Source: Paenibacillus sp. EZ-K15
Lineage (GTDB): Bacteria > Bacillota > Bacilli > Paenibacillales > Paenibacillaceae
NCBI RefSeq assembly: GCF_002573715.1
Contig: NZ_PDHM01000017.1
Span: 607,499 to 671,498, forward strand
Length of the DNA: 64,000 nucleotides
Direction of reading: 5' to 3'
Shown: piece by piece, positions 60,823 through 64,000 of the stretch
Position numbering within the stretch: position 1 is the stretch's first letter
Layout of the letters: each line of letters opens with the position of its first letter
Program-made: the position numbers and the translations under genes
Notes under the pieces: generated by a model
The model's input: only the letters and a program-made list of their open reading frames with translations
Told to the model about the DNA's origin: nothing
Databases searched by the model: none

Positions 60823-61239
60823 CTACTTCTGTGCGACTGCTTGCTCCTTTGCCTGTTCATCGTCTTTATTCTCAGGCAACTCGCCGTCTTTCCAGATGAC
60901 CTGTTCGCCGTAATCTTTTCCCCAATCGTACATCAACTTCAAAATCGGCATTAAGCTCTCCCCGTAAGGCGTGAGCGAATATTCGACTCGTGGCGGAACC
61001 TCGGGATAAACCACGCGATGAACGAGCTGATCTTCCTCCAATTCACGGAGCTGGTTGGTCAGCATTTTTTGCGTGATATGAGGAATCATTCGATTCAGCT
61101 CGCCGAAGCGTTTAACCCCCTCTAAGCCAAGATGCCATAGGATGATCAGCTTCCATTTGCCGCCGATGACCGCCAGGGTTAACTCCTTATGGCAGTTTAT
61201 TTCCTTCAGATTGATTCGCTGCTTGACTTCACTTGCCAT
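60823..61239 (-). CDS. hxlR: HxlR-family transcriptional regulator
   Basis: 138 residues. The winged helix is plain: [39 protein letters not shown] and [11 protein letters not shown]. The single Cys in [10 protein letters not shown] is at the position of the formaldehyde-reactive Cys of Bacillus HxlR. HxlR activates hxlAB when formaldehyde is present. Here it is downstream of hxlAB on the same strand, unlike in Bacillus subtilis, where it is divergent. Confidence 0.9.
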
Positions 61240-61322
61240 AATGCATCACCCCTTCTTCCCTACAGTATACAACGGTCGCGGTTATATCATCAAAACGGCA
61301 ACTTTACCCAGACCTTGGCTTC

Positions 61323-61886
61323 TTATTCCAAATTGGCATGTAGCCCGAACATATTTTCCGAGTGAACTTCCTTCATCTCCATCAATCTCAAGATGACGGC
61401 ATCCAAAACGATCAGCATCGTTTGTTCAAATAAAGAGGCCATCGGTTGAACGGTGACAAGGGATCCTTGATGCTGATCCTTCGTTGTGCCCGGTAGTCGA
61501 ACGATCGCATCCGAAAGCTTACCGATACGTGATTCGGGGTTCACGGTTACCACCGCTACGGCAGAGCCTATATCCTTGGCCTTCTGTGCCATAGACACCA
61601 AGCTCTGCGTTTCGCCGGAGCCTGAACCGATAAGTAGTAAATCCCGCGCGCCGATGGCTGGAGTTACCGTATCGCCCACGACATGAACATTATACCCCAT
61701 CTGCATTAATCGCATGGCAAAAGCTCGGATCATCAGACCGGATCTGCCTCCCCCTGCCAAGAAGACGGCATCGGATTGCACGATCCGTTCAATCAATTCC
61801 TCGATCTGGCCAGCATCCACCTGCTGTACGGATTCCGATAACTCCTTGGCAATGACGGATGCATGTTGAAAGATGTTATGACTCAT
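61323..61886 (-). CDS. hxlB: 6-phospho-3-hexuloisomerase
   Basis: 187 residues with a SIS sugar-isomerase fold: FLAGGGRSGLMIRAFAMRL, GDTVTPAIGARDLLLIGSGS and TTKDQH. It converts hexulose 6-phosphate to fructose 6-phosphate in the ribulose monophosphate pathway. It starts 6 bases after hxlA. Confidence 0.95.
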   Translation of the reverse strand: MSHNIFQHASVIAKELSESVQQVDAGQIEELIERIVQSDAVFLAGGGRSGLMIRAFAMRLMQMGYNVHVVGDTVTPAIGARDLLLIGSGSGETQSLVSMAQKAKDIGSAVAVVTVNPESRIGKLSDAIVRLPGTTKDQHQGSLVTVQPMASLFEQTMLIVLDAVILRLMEMKEVHSENMFGLHANLE

Positions 61887-61892
61887 GGTGAC

Positions 61893-62525
61893 TTATGCCT
61901 GCTTCACAAGCTCGTTCATTTGAGCCGCTGTGGCCTTCTTGTCGGTTTGGCTTGTAATTCCGCCGCCGACGATGACGAGATCGGGATTTGCCTGAATCAC
62001 CTCAGGGAGCGTCTCCATTTTGATTCCGCCCGCAACGGCAGTTTTGGCTTGTTTCACGACACGTTTGATCGCTGCCAATTCCTCGAATGAGTTTTTGCCT
62101 TCCGCCTGGTGGTCGTAGCCGGAATGAACGCAGATGTAATCCACGCCGAAAGCATCGATCTCCCGCGCCCTGCCTTCAATGTCCTTTACATTGATCATAT
62201 CCACCATCACTTGCTTGCCTTGCTTGAGGGCTTCCGCTACCGCGCCTTTGATCGTGGAATCGTCGGATACGCCAAGCACCGTAATGATATCCGCACCGGC
62301 TTCAGATGCTTTCATCACTTCATAACCGCCCGCATCCATAATTTTAAGGTCGGCCAGCACGCGCAGATGCGGGAACGCCTCTTTAATCGCTTTGACGGCA
62401 TGAAGCCCTTCGTTAATAACAACGGGCGTTCCGATCTCCACGATATCGATAAACTCGGCTACTTCAGCCACCACTTGTTTTGCTTCTGGAATATTCACCA
62501 AATCCAATGCCAATTGAAGTTCCAT
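61893..62525 (-). CDS. hxlA: 3-hexulose-6-phosphate synthase
   Basis: 210 residues of the orotidine-decarboxylase-like barrel: IVEIGTPVVINEGLHAV, LADLKIMDAGGYE (catalytic Asp/Lys) and VAGGIKMETLPEV. It condenses formaldehyde with ribulose 5-phosphate. The ATG has AAGGAGAG upstream. With hxlB it detoxifies formaldehyde. Confidence 0.96.
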   Translation of the reverse strand: MELQLALDLVNIPEAKQVVAEVAEFIDIVEIGTPVVINEGLHAVKAIKEAFPHLRVLADLKIMDAGGYEVMKASEAGADIITVLGVSDDSTIKGAVAEALKQGKQVMVDMINVKDIEGRAREIDAFGVDYICVHSGYDHQAEGKNSFEELAAIKRVVKQAKTAVAGGIKMETLPEVIQANPDLVIVGGGITSQTDKKATAAQMNELVKQA

Positions 62526-62587
62526 ATTGTTAATCTCTCCTTATGAACGTATTGTTTAATGACTACACGATCATTGTAGAGCGACAG

Positions 62588-62643
62588 TTTACTTTACGGA
62601 AGTACGTACTTATAAGTGAGATACTTACGTGGAAGTAAGTAAT
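62588..62643. promoter_or_regulatory. Repeated ACTT/AAGT sites, probable HxlR operators
   Basis: Two 20-base direct repeats (62588-62607 and 62621-62640), each with ACTT and AAGT half-sites and sharing TACTT..(CGT)GGAAGTA, flank a third ACTT-at-AAGT. They lie just upstream of TACAAT (62573-62578, minus), whose -35 is poor, as expected for an activated promoter. Confidence 0.6.
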
Positions 62644-62809
62644 ATGGAGACAAAGGGTTAGTGGCTTCATTTTTTTCTGTTAAGCATGCTGTCTCAATGC
62701 GGCTGGTAAAAAACAATTAAGCCTGTTTGTTCACTTTCGACTCACATCCGGCTGTGGTTTAATATAATTGTCAGGCCGGACAAAATGATCGGAAAGGAGG
62801 CTGAACGAA

Positions 62810-62842
62810 TTGATTCAGAATATGGAGGTGGCATCCGCATAA
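62810..62842 (+). CDS. 10-residue leader peptide, copy 1
   Basis: TTG start, 9 bases after AAAGGAGG: MIQNMEVASA, stop TAA. The same peptide is encoded at 63604 with a synonymous Ser codon (TCC versus TCT). Its last codons form the 5' arm of a hairpin. Confidence 0.6.
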   Translation: MIQNMEVASA

Positions 62843-62861
62843 AGCGGGTGTCACGTTTAAG

Positions 62862-62890
62862 GGAGCCCGTTATAGGGCTCCCTTTCATTT
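62862..62890 (+). terminator. Terminator in leader copy 1
   Basis: GGGAGCCC-gttata-GGGCTCCC followed by TTTCATTT. Confidence 0.85.
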
Positions 62891-62918
62891 ACAATCCGAT
62901 AGAATTGGAGGTAATGTT

Positions 62919-63464
62919 ATGTCACATTCATGTGAACCAGCCGTTATAATTGTCACTGGCGTCATGGCTTCCGGTAAATCGACGGTAGCCCAGCTGCTAG
63001 CGGAGAAATTTGAACGCGGAGTCCATTTGCGGGGGGACTCGTTTCGGAAAATGATAGTCAGGGGCAGAGAAGAAATGCTTCCGGATGCTTCCCTTGAGGC
63101 GGAGAGGCAACTCGCATTACGGTATCAGCTATCCGCCTCCGCTGCCAGAACCTATGCTGAAGCCGGTTTTCATGTCATTCTGCAGGACGTCATTCTCGGC
63201 CCGGCACTGCAAGATATCACAGCAATGCTAAATGGCCTTCCCGTCTTCATCGTTGTGCTAAACCCATCCGAGAATGCCATTAGCGAACGAGAGCAGATAC
63301 GTGACAAAAAAGGCTACGGGGTATGGACCATCCACGAGCTGAACCGGCGGTTAGCCGACGAAACGCCAAGAATTGGCCTGTGGCTGGATACCTCCGATTT
63401 TTCTCCTGAGGACACCGCCCAAGAGATTTGGAAGCGGATTTGGGATGAGGGGAAAGTCCGTTAA
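62919..63464 (+). CDS. P-loop kinase / phosphotransferase-like protein (AAA_33, Cpt-like)
   Basis: 181 residues. Walker A GVMASGKST, then HLRGDSFRKM, GFHVILQDVILG (Walker B-like) and a lid with REQIRDKKGYG. This pattern occurs in zeta-toxin-like and chloramphenicol phosphotransferase-like kinases. The substrate is unknown. The leader RNA with a short peptide ORF upstream is of the kind seen before antibiotic-resistance genes, which makes a resistance role plausible but unproven. The start ATG has TTGGAGGT upstream. Confidence 0.85.
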   Translation: MSHSCEPAVIIVTGVMASGKSTVAQLLAEKFERGVHLRGDSFRKMIVRGREEMLPDASLEAERQLALRYQLSASAARTYAEAGFHVILQDVILGPALQDITAMLNGLPVFIVVLNPSENAISEREQIRDKKGYGVWTIHELNRRLADETPRIGLWLDTSDFSPEDTAQEIWKRIWDEGKVR

Positions 63465-63603
63465 CATATACTCGGTAGCATTCATGACGAGACTTCCTGG
63501 TAAAAAACAATTAAGCCTGTTTATTCACTTCTGTCCCGCCACCGGCTATGGTTAAATATAGTTGTCCGGCTGGACCAAATGATCGGAAAGGAGGCTGAAC
63601 GAG

Positions 63604-63636
63604 TTGATTCAGAATATGGAGGTGGCATCTGCATAA
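63604..63636 (+). CDS. 10-residue leader peptide, copy 2
   Basis: Identical peptide MIQNMEVASA from TTG, with the same ribosome site AAAGGAGG; one synonymous change. Confidence 0.6.
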   Translation: MIQNMEVASA

Positions 63637-63651
63637 GCGGATGCCACGTTA

Positions 63652-63682
63652 AGGGGAGCCCCGTATAGGGCTCCCCTTCATT
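63652..63682. terminator. Terminator in leader copy 2
   Basis: GGGGAGCCC...GGGCTCCCC followed by TTCATTT. Also placed to act on the convergent gene. Confidence 0.8.
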
Positions 63683-63687
63683 TCATA

Positions 63688-64000
63688 TTACTCGTAAATC
63701 ACGGCTTTGATCTCGTCGCTATCGATATTGTTTTTGTCGTACCAGTAGAATCCCGTATCGATCTGCGGTTCGACCTTCTCCCCTTTGATGGCCGCCACGG
63801 CGGCTTTTACCGTCTCATATCCGATGCCGACCGGATTTTGCGTGATGGCTCCCGCCATTGTTCCGTTCTTGATAGCGTCAATCTGCGCTTTTCCGGAATC
63901 GAATCCAACCACGATAATCTGACCTTCCTTCTTCATCTCCGTTACCGCATTGATGACACCGACGGCGGAGCCTTCATTCGCCCCGAATATCCCTTTTAAG
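63688..64000 (-). CDS. Sugar ABC transporter substrate-binding protein, C-terminal part (partial)
   Basis: The last 103 codons are in the window; the 5' end is beyond the right edge. Sequence such as GIFGANEGSAVGVINAV, IIVVGFDSGKAQIDAIKNGT and AGAITQNPVGIGYETVKAA is the C-terminal lobe of RbsB-type periplasmic-binding proteins for ribose, galactose or similar sugars. The lipoprotein signal, if any, lies outside. Confidence 0.9.
   Translation of the reverse strand, partial: LKGIFGANEGSAVGVINAVTEMKKEGQIIVVGFDSGKAQIDAIKNGTMAGAITQNPVGIGYETVKAAVAAIKGEKVEPQIDTGFYWYDKNNIDSDEIKAVIYE

Follow-up and report, generated by a model that had tools for sequence, protein, structure and literature searches.

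A short-ORF leader preceding CD3324-family genes in Paenibacillus and its relatives, a candidate counterpart of the whiB7 leader

Mor and C of phage Mu activate promoters with a poor -35 element from an upstream dyad, and WhiB7, which acts beside the -35 element, has a regulon that includes genes for ABC-F proteins, HflX and Eis. According to excerpts of two reports (PMC11550727, PMC13236596), the whiB7/wblC gene, encoding a transcription factor of intrinsic resistance, is preceded by a uORF-bearing leader and induced by stalling on the uORF, and the wblC leader is described in the excerpted text as a terminator/antiterminator switch (PMC11550727/PMC13236596). In Bacillus subtilis, vmlR and bmrCD have uORF attenuators with antiterminator/terminator switching at the resistance gene itself (excerpt of PMC9226507). 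The regulator gene rbf of Staphylococcus aureus follows an 8-codon leader, rbfL, which overlaps the rbf Shine-Dalgarno (SD) sequence, and extended SD motifs are found there (excerpt of PMC13009471), while the toiL uORF before topAI of Escherichia coli was proposed as a sensor of several classes of ribosome-targeting antibiotics (excerpt of PMC12121999).

We analysed a stretch of 64,000 nucleotides from Paenibacillus sp. EZ-K15 (the window), in which a sequence-only reading had noticed two 188-base units, each seen as a leader RNA with a decapeptide ORF, a hairpin and a terminator. The two-copy repeat is real and the leader is indeed duplicated, but the units measure 188 bp and 187 bp, the second being shorter: unit 1 spans 62703-62890 and unit 2 63497-63683 (offset 794/793), with 89% identity over the direct repeat 62703-62842/63497-63636 and 86% over 62842-62890/63635-63683. 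Each unit contains, in this order, a promoter, the SD sequence AAAGGAGG, a TTG-started 10-codon ORF, a hairpin whose loop holds the stop codon, and another, GC-rich hairpin; the ribosome site and the peptide MIQNMEVASA, which the reading took to be common to both, are found in both units with one synonymous change (TCC/TCT). The folding MFE z-scores are -6.6 and -5.8 for the two units (0 of 200 shuffles as good).

For the searches we used a covariance model of the RNA core built from 31 units (R1) and a sequence-only promoter model (R2) derived from an alignment of 56 unit promoters (A4). Unit 1, on the forward strand, starts with an AT-rich operator-like inverted repeat and an extended -10 promoter (62701..62772; R2 match at C8:670199-670270, E 2.6e-11, a score that is by construction because the site is among the 56 training-set promoters of A4), followed by the RNA core (5' inverted repeat, SD, 10-codon ORF and stop hairpin; 62769..62856; R1 99.8 bits, as a training-set member). 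The core contains the SD AAAGGAGG (62793..62800; alignment columns nearly all invariant), the leader ORF with its TTG start, MIQNMEVASA and stop (62810..62842; conserved across units), an SD-like GAGGTG in the Glu-Val codons 9 nt before the stop (62825..62830) and stem 2, whose loop holds the stop codon (62828..62854; from folding and covariation). Stem 3, the GC-rich hairpin with a weak U-tract, lies at 62859..62884 (from folding, tail counts and a terminator scan). Unit 2, on the same strand, has its operator-like repeat and promoter at 63493..63566 (R2 match C8:670991-671064, E 1.0e-12; training-set member), the RNA core at 63563..63649 (R1 96.5 bits; training-set member), the ORF for MIQNMEVASA at 63604..63636 and a stem 3 that is terminator-like in the terminator scan at 63651..63678, convergent with the next gene.

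Between the units, on the forward strand, lies a gene for a CPT-like/AAA_33 P-loop kinase of 181 aa (62919..63464; Pfam PF07931, 46.5 bits with a cut-off of 22, and PF13671, 46.2 bits with a cut-off of 27), for which no NCBIfam model was over its cut-off. Unit 2 ends at 63683, and at 63688 ends the convergent gene of a sugar ABC substrate-binding protein (63688..64000, reverse strand; Pfam PF13407), which runs off the window and lies outside the system. Divergent from unit 1, hxlA/hxlB (RuMP formaldehyde pathway) and an adjoining HxlR-family gene occupy 60823-62525 on the reverse strand. The genome has three copies in total: the third (C8:685073-685252; peptide MIQIREVVFA), 13.9 kb downstream and outside the window, precedes a CD3324-family gene, and the window copies are its paralogues. 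None of 4227 Rfam families reached its gathering score over 18 loci, with two sub-threshold matches in window positions 61000-64000.

R1 matches 166 of 295 family genomes (12 of 19 genera) and 185 of the 296 genomes in an order sample (29 of 48 genera), mostly in single copy (9 of the 185 have more than one). By blastn (E<=0.01), 43 of 100 genomes of the genus match, some of the matches being short and weak. In a class sample, 11 of 250 genomes have R1 matches, including 8 within the order, one sound match outside it (G526, with CD3324 downstream) and two weak ones (G595 and G495, E 0.006 and 0.009), which on inspection were judged to be chance. The element is also present in some Bacillaceae. 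In named genomes, a pattern scan found 31 loci, spread over Paenibacillus, a Paenibacillaceae bin and Cohnella and including five in Oceanobacillus (2), Virgibacillus, Pseudalkalibacillus and Lederbergia; a CD3324 gene follows the unit in four of these five (two by motif, two by eye), and the fifth sequence stops 229 nt past the SD. We also note that five genomes (G111, G221, G275, G363 and G371) have two unit matches each.

The sequence-only reading proposed listing the genes that the unit precedes in related genomes. The unit proved not to be scattered: of 40 diverged loci, 39 have a CD3324-family gene following it on the same strand, with other neighbours that differ and a conserved peptide ORF (the contig of the 40th locus, L097, ends 646 nt after the R1 match, and L085, among the 39, has CD3324 called just as a 57-aa piece). 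Between the R1 match and the start of CD3324 lie 107-560 nt with further leader ORFs: one overlaps the beginning of CD3324, and some of the loci also have a second leader. At five loci (L003, L018, L069, L078 and L084) an ORF with a strong SD crosses the CD3324 start out of frame, and this overlap suggests translational coupling. At some loci, sequence resembling a promoter is visible by eye in the gap before CD3324; the leader and the CD3324 mRNA may therefore be distinct transcripts.

CD3324 is a chromosomally encoded protein of about 93 aa, which profile similarity predicts to be a small Mor/C-like transcription activator. All three CD3324 proteins scanned are over the NF040785 cut-off (113 bits for the third-copy protein; cut-off 65), and two of them match Pfam Mor PF08765 at 34.6 and 33.2 bits (cut-off 24.9), the 33-bit match being that of the third-copy protein; no WhiB model is among the NF040785/Pfam scan results of these proteins. 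Searched against the PDB, the CD3324 profile finds 'Late transcription activator C' (E 0.005) and Mor 1rr7 (E 0.95), the top match being another molecule, 8vd6 (E 0.001). The family also occurs without the unit: the window's genome has three further CD3324 genes with no adjoining unit, the unit is absent at 14 other CD3324 loci, and a promoter search at 15 other CD3324 loci gave a single weak match (L126, E 0.015). At an Oceanobacillus locus (L144), sequence like the unit promoter type is seen by eye after a CD3324 gene.

That the unit is a translated leader, as first proposed, is supported by ORF conservation among 84 distinct units from 110 loci: the ORF is 10 codons long in 80 units and 11 in the other 4 (in L087 through an extra upstream Met). 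The script demanded [EG]V in the ORF, so that the amino acids there are partly by construction and the codons are not; three of the 110 loci (L013, L070 and L098) failed the unit filter, and their ORFs, with GAG GTG, are present by reading. The ORF is open in all 50 units displayed, out of 63 R1 matches, and the SD-start spacing differs by single bases across units whereas the codon number stays near-fixed. GAG is conserved in 83 and GTG in 84 of the 84 units; the Val after GAG GTG is encoded by GTT, GTC or GTA, never by GTG, and the Ser, Ala and Ile codons show synonymous variation. These codon patterns therefore point to conservation of both the reading frame and an RNA-level GAGGUG, and the 10-codon ORF is under selection.

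GAGGUG can pair with the 3' end of 16S rRNA, and 6 nt is a usual SD distance. In the leader, 9 nt separate the motif from the stop and 6 nt from the last sense codon. Pairing with the 16S 3' end could therefore take place exactly as the stop codon occupies the A site, and we infer that a terminating ribosome may be held there. Read-through or frameshifting beyond the leader stop was rejected as a candidate, the three frames being open across stem 3 in just 59, 61 and 56 of the 84 units. The stop-proximal SD-like motif seemingly reappears in a different ORF: at 10 loci (L089, L090, L093, L095, L096, L098-L100, L105 and L107), the second leader ORF between the unit and CD3324 was seen by eye to end E-V-x-x-x-stop, with GAGGTG/GAGGTA 9 nt before the stop. 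In L096, L099, L095, L098 and L107, a terminator-like hairpin and a long T run follow this second ORF.

A hairpin over the peptide stop had been proposed, and both units do hold the stop codon in the loop of stem 2, which covaries among the 31 units (changes on both sides in 5 of 9 pairs). Over the 13 pairs of this hairpin and the 5' inverted repeat, 95.5% of cells show standard pairing, and 7 of the 13 pairs have changed on both sides; 0 of 500 shuffles did as well (the 31 sequences are related and not independent events). The 5' inverted repeat, whose arms are down to 8 bases at some loci, may be a DNA palindrome or an RNA hairpin. The second hairpin, read earlier as a terminator, is GC-rich, but its T tail is weak, and a simple terminator scan was passed by unit 2 and failed by unit 1. 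Stem 3 is strong (mean -18.3 kcal/mol over 84 units), and, counting T in the 9 bases that follow it, 59 of the 84 units reach at most 4 and 25 at least 5 (in these counts the tail of L007 unit 2 ends at the contig end, and the stem chosen for L103 is doubtful).

The sequence-only reading saw in this arrangement the form of ribosome-mediated attenuation; the classical geometry of that form did not hold up. Sought in all 84 units, an antiterminator against stem 3 was found to compete in 4, and pairing of the upstream RNA with a stem 3 arm averages -12.4 kcal/mol, about the level of shuffled upstream RNA (-11.6 kcal/mol, with shuffles that preserved base composition only), compared with -18.3 for stem 3 itself; the U-tract, moreover, is weak in 59 of 84. 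RNAalifold suggested pairing of the SD with the 3' arm of stem 3 from a poorly aligned terminator; we rejected it as CCUCC is absent from window-type and several other units, and a covariation test of this pairing is impossible because the SD is invariant.

In the unit promoter, a conserved AT-rich inverted repeat precedes a poor -35, and the -10 is of the extended type; the A4 consensus is GGTAAAAAACANTTATAACNATTCTTTCNCTTG, a variable spacer and then ATATGAGTTAATANAG. We searched R2 in 20 genomes and then, with stricter filters, in 75 more, all 95 unit-bearing (by R1, except G017, G028, G038, G052, G062 and G063, by blastn). Sites were removed as unit promoters by adjacency to a known unit (in G363, G374 and G382 the strong site was assumed to be the unit's), second-strand matches of the same palindrome were left out (G399, G420), and so was L241, which is a unit (43 -> 42). 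There remain 42 non-unit sites at E<=0.003 (10 + 32), in 37 of the 95 genomes; sites in related species are not independent. Genomes without an R1 match have one site in 33 (G107, E 1.3e-4), under filters laxer than for the 75. Recurrence of the motif is far commoner in unit-bearing genomes (Fisher p 3.7e-5 by genomes, 37/95 versus the 33-genome control, with relatedness uncorrected, 14 of the 33 control genomes from one genus, g7, and 'unit-less' status taken from a search with stricter filters). A same-strand ORF lies within 400 nt of 34 of the 42 sites versus 7 of 20 weak sites (E 0.34-0.55; p 6e-4), and 2 of 43 sites versus 8 of the 20 weak sites lie within ORFs; at one control locus (L276) about 500 nt after the site are covered. 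Gene calling overlooked some short genes (csaA in L246 and a small protein in L248, L255 and L259).

Ribosome or translation genes follow 14 of the 42 sites, namely ABC-F (5, all over the NF000355 cut-off, with the L262 site inside another ORF), HflX (3, over cut-off), RsgA (3, over the TIGR00157 cut-off), CsaA (2, one over cut-off and one by eye) and ThrS (1, over cut-off). The genes at the other 28 have no direct part in ribosome function or translation. ABC exporters are found after seven sites (four scanned, three from first residues), genes of the aminoglycoside-modifying type after two, one ANT(9)/ANT(3'')-like (70.6 bits, cut-off 340) and one of the APH family (Pfam, over cut-off), and GNAT genes after four, one of them Eis-like (its Pfam domains are those of Eis). 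An unnamed small protein conserved in Paenibacillus follows four sites (L248, L255 and L259 were read, L260 was assigned by its identical site), and the remaining sites precede methyltransferase (2, below cut-offs), DinB (2), and other or no genes (7). Of 12 weak-site ORFs 10 were scanned, and none was ABC-F, HflX or RsgA. The window's genome has one extra site at E<=0.003 (C12:207566, E 0.00115), flanked on one side by a GNAT gene and on the other by the gene of a divergent relative of tetracycline ribosomal-protection proteins (537.6 bits over 477 residues; the cut-off of 775 applies to the whole protein). We note that the rsgA genes with the motif (L224, L230) are themselves preceded by a short leader ORF (MTAYMVVVVLT in L224) and by terminator-like sequence. 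The unit promoter motif, without the leader, recurs before ribosome-protection and drug-resistance-type genes. The suspected link to resistance against ribosome-targeting drugs gains substance from the motif before ABC-F, HflX, RsgA and drug-modifying-type genes, and the unit may be part of an alarm system for attacks on protein synthesis.

The kinase gene turned out to be a less regular partner. Its homologues give 19 matches in 18 of 100 genus genomes; the unit is found within about 1.5 kb of six of the 19 (in fetched flanks), the six closest, and the other 13 loci have neither unit nor promoter motif. The unit is therefore not primarily the leader of the kinase gene, as had been supposed, nor do these 13 loci agree with the scar of a gene-cassette duplication; rather, the unit seems to have arrived before an existing kinase gene. 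We also rejected general membership of the kinase family in the regulon: of 14 kinase loci (L172-L185), a single one, L172, has a promoter match, and this locus has the unit. Two weak control sites bear on the same point: L272 (E 0.381) is followed by the gene of a relative of the window kinase (39.7% over 68 aa), and L270 (E 0.377, in the window's genome) by a gene that is CPT-like by eye only; as links between kinase and motif these two are suggestive, no more. The unit pair around the kinase gene is confined to a small clade, and in another genome (G010) two units stand in tandem before CD3324, which suggests how the duplication began. Copy 2 has no downstream gene to point at, yet it is conserved: across 9 genomes identity is 0.89 in the leader, 0.80 in the promoter and 0.69 in stems 2-3, with 0.65 in the downstream flank and 0.37 in the upstream flank (partly from differing neighbours). 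For copy 1 (6 genomes) the leader is 0.97 identical and the flanks 0.68 and 0.65. A compensatory change is seen in the orphan copy 2 of L006, and on these identities copy 2 is apparently maintained by selection.

We consider it probable, though well short of certain, that CD3324 acts as a Bacillales analogue of WhiB7, with the unit, in Paenibacillus and relatives, as its self-contained, autoregulated promoter-leader carrying a uORF. CD3324 would bind the AT-rich inverted repeat, as its position and co-occurrence suggest, and activate its own leader promoter plus a motif-bearing regulon. Translation of the ORF would make activator production depend on ribosome state, in the manner of the actinomycete whiB7/wblC uORF, and a ribosome with the stop in its A site might be held by pairing of GAGGUG with its 16S 3' end. 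The module was duplicated in the window lineage, where copy 1 may draw the kinase gene into the regulon. The simplest whole reading, we infer, is a system that works like whiB7/wblC yet lies outside that family. More tentatively, and with the balance of our judgement on the doubtful side, we propose for Bacillales a WhiB7-like master switch made from unrelated parts, a Mor/C-type CD3324 and, in the 10-codon ORF of its leader RNA, a stop-proximal SD clamp, for which the signal would be ribosome termination or recycling, not stalling at a drug-specific codon, and which would be portable and have recruited a phosphotransferase in the window lineage.

Several other explanations deserve weight. A different regulator may bind the promoter motif of a ribosome-stress regulon in which CD3324 is merely one member; the motif stands upstream of many genes and the binding by CD3324 is itself deduced, but no target is more frequent or scores higher than CD3324 (on which the model was trained), CD3324 is Mor/C-like, and the co-occurrence of motif and unit together with CD3324 as the top target fits autoregulation, short of proof, so we regard this explanation as somewhat unlikely. 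An ordinary attenuator of the erm/vmlR type, in which a ribosome stalled on the ORF prevents the terminator and the downstream gene is transcribed, would account for the in-frame conserved short ORF, the hairpin over its end, the terminator-like hairpin and the downstream gene, and vmlR is of this type (excerpt of PMC9226507). At L084 and L078, with a short gap, no convincing second promoter is seen by eye, so CD3324 probably needs read-through of stem 3 there. The lack of a mutually exclusive antiterminator in all but 4 of 84 units and the weak U-tract in most make such an attenuator unlikely.

The unit could also yield a stand-alone small RNA or a trans-acting decapeptide, with CD3324 and the kinase gene having their own signals. 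Its own promoter and 3' hairpin, the promoter-like sequence before CD3324 in some loci, and the conservation of the gene-less copy 2 with its compensatory change are all compatible with this, but a near-constant place before CD3324 amid changing neighbours is typical of a cis element, and we hold a stand-alone product to be distinctly unlikely. Finally, the copies might be a mobile or passive repeat, a functionless scar of cassette duplication, as the small clade of the kinase-flanking pair and the absence of a gene after copy 2 could be taken to indicate; given order-wide conservation, covariation, the codon-frame constraint and the well-conserved orphan leader (with lower identity in stems 2-3), this is very improbable.

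If the preferred autoregulation by CD3324 is true, intrinsic resistance to ribosome-targeting drugs in a large group of soil bacteria would be under a central regulator that has gone unrecognised and is convergent with WhiB7, and a candidate for it would be in hand by name, together with a promoter motif and a short leader. GAGGUG exactly 9 nt before the stop offers an idea of how a leader could report translation termination, and the window suggests that an attenuator-like leader can be duplicated and then come to precede another gene. In the titles and abstract openings among the matches listed for CD3324, Paenibacillus leaders or resistance regulators, WhiB7/HflX/ABC-F and Mor activators, with subscription journals outside this scope, the CD3324-leader system is not named.

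Among the described systems, toiL-topAI differs in working, according to the excerpt, via SD occlusion and Rho-dependent termination. With rbfL-rbf (again from the excerpt), the unit shares a short leader ORF before a transcriptional regulator and extended SD motifs, but here the ORF stops well upstream of CD3324 and the SD-like motif precedes the stop. With vmlR and bmrCD, as excerpted, it shares a short translated leader ORF and a link to ABC-F or ABC exporter resistance; here, however, the leader fronts a regulator and no terminator switch was seen. CD3324 resembles Mor/C in its profile, and the conserved inverted repeat just upstream of a poor -35 is a candidate binding site; it differs in being chromosomal, about 93 aa long and equipped with a leader RNA. 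Compared with whiB7/wblC, CD3324 is Mor/C-like and not a WhiB iron-sulphur protein, it belongs to another phylum and no conserved antiterminator was found in its units; what the two systems appear to have in common is a uORF-bearing leader before a predicted regulator and a regulon of ribosome-protection and resistance genes, deduced here from the promoter motif (14 of 42 sites).
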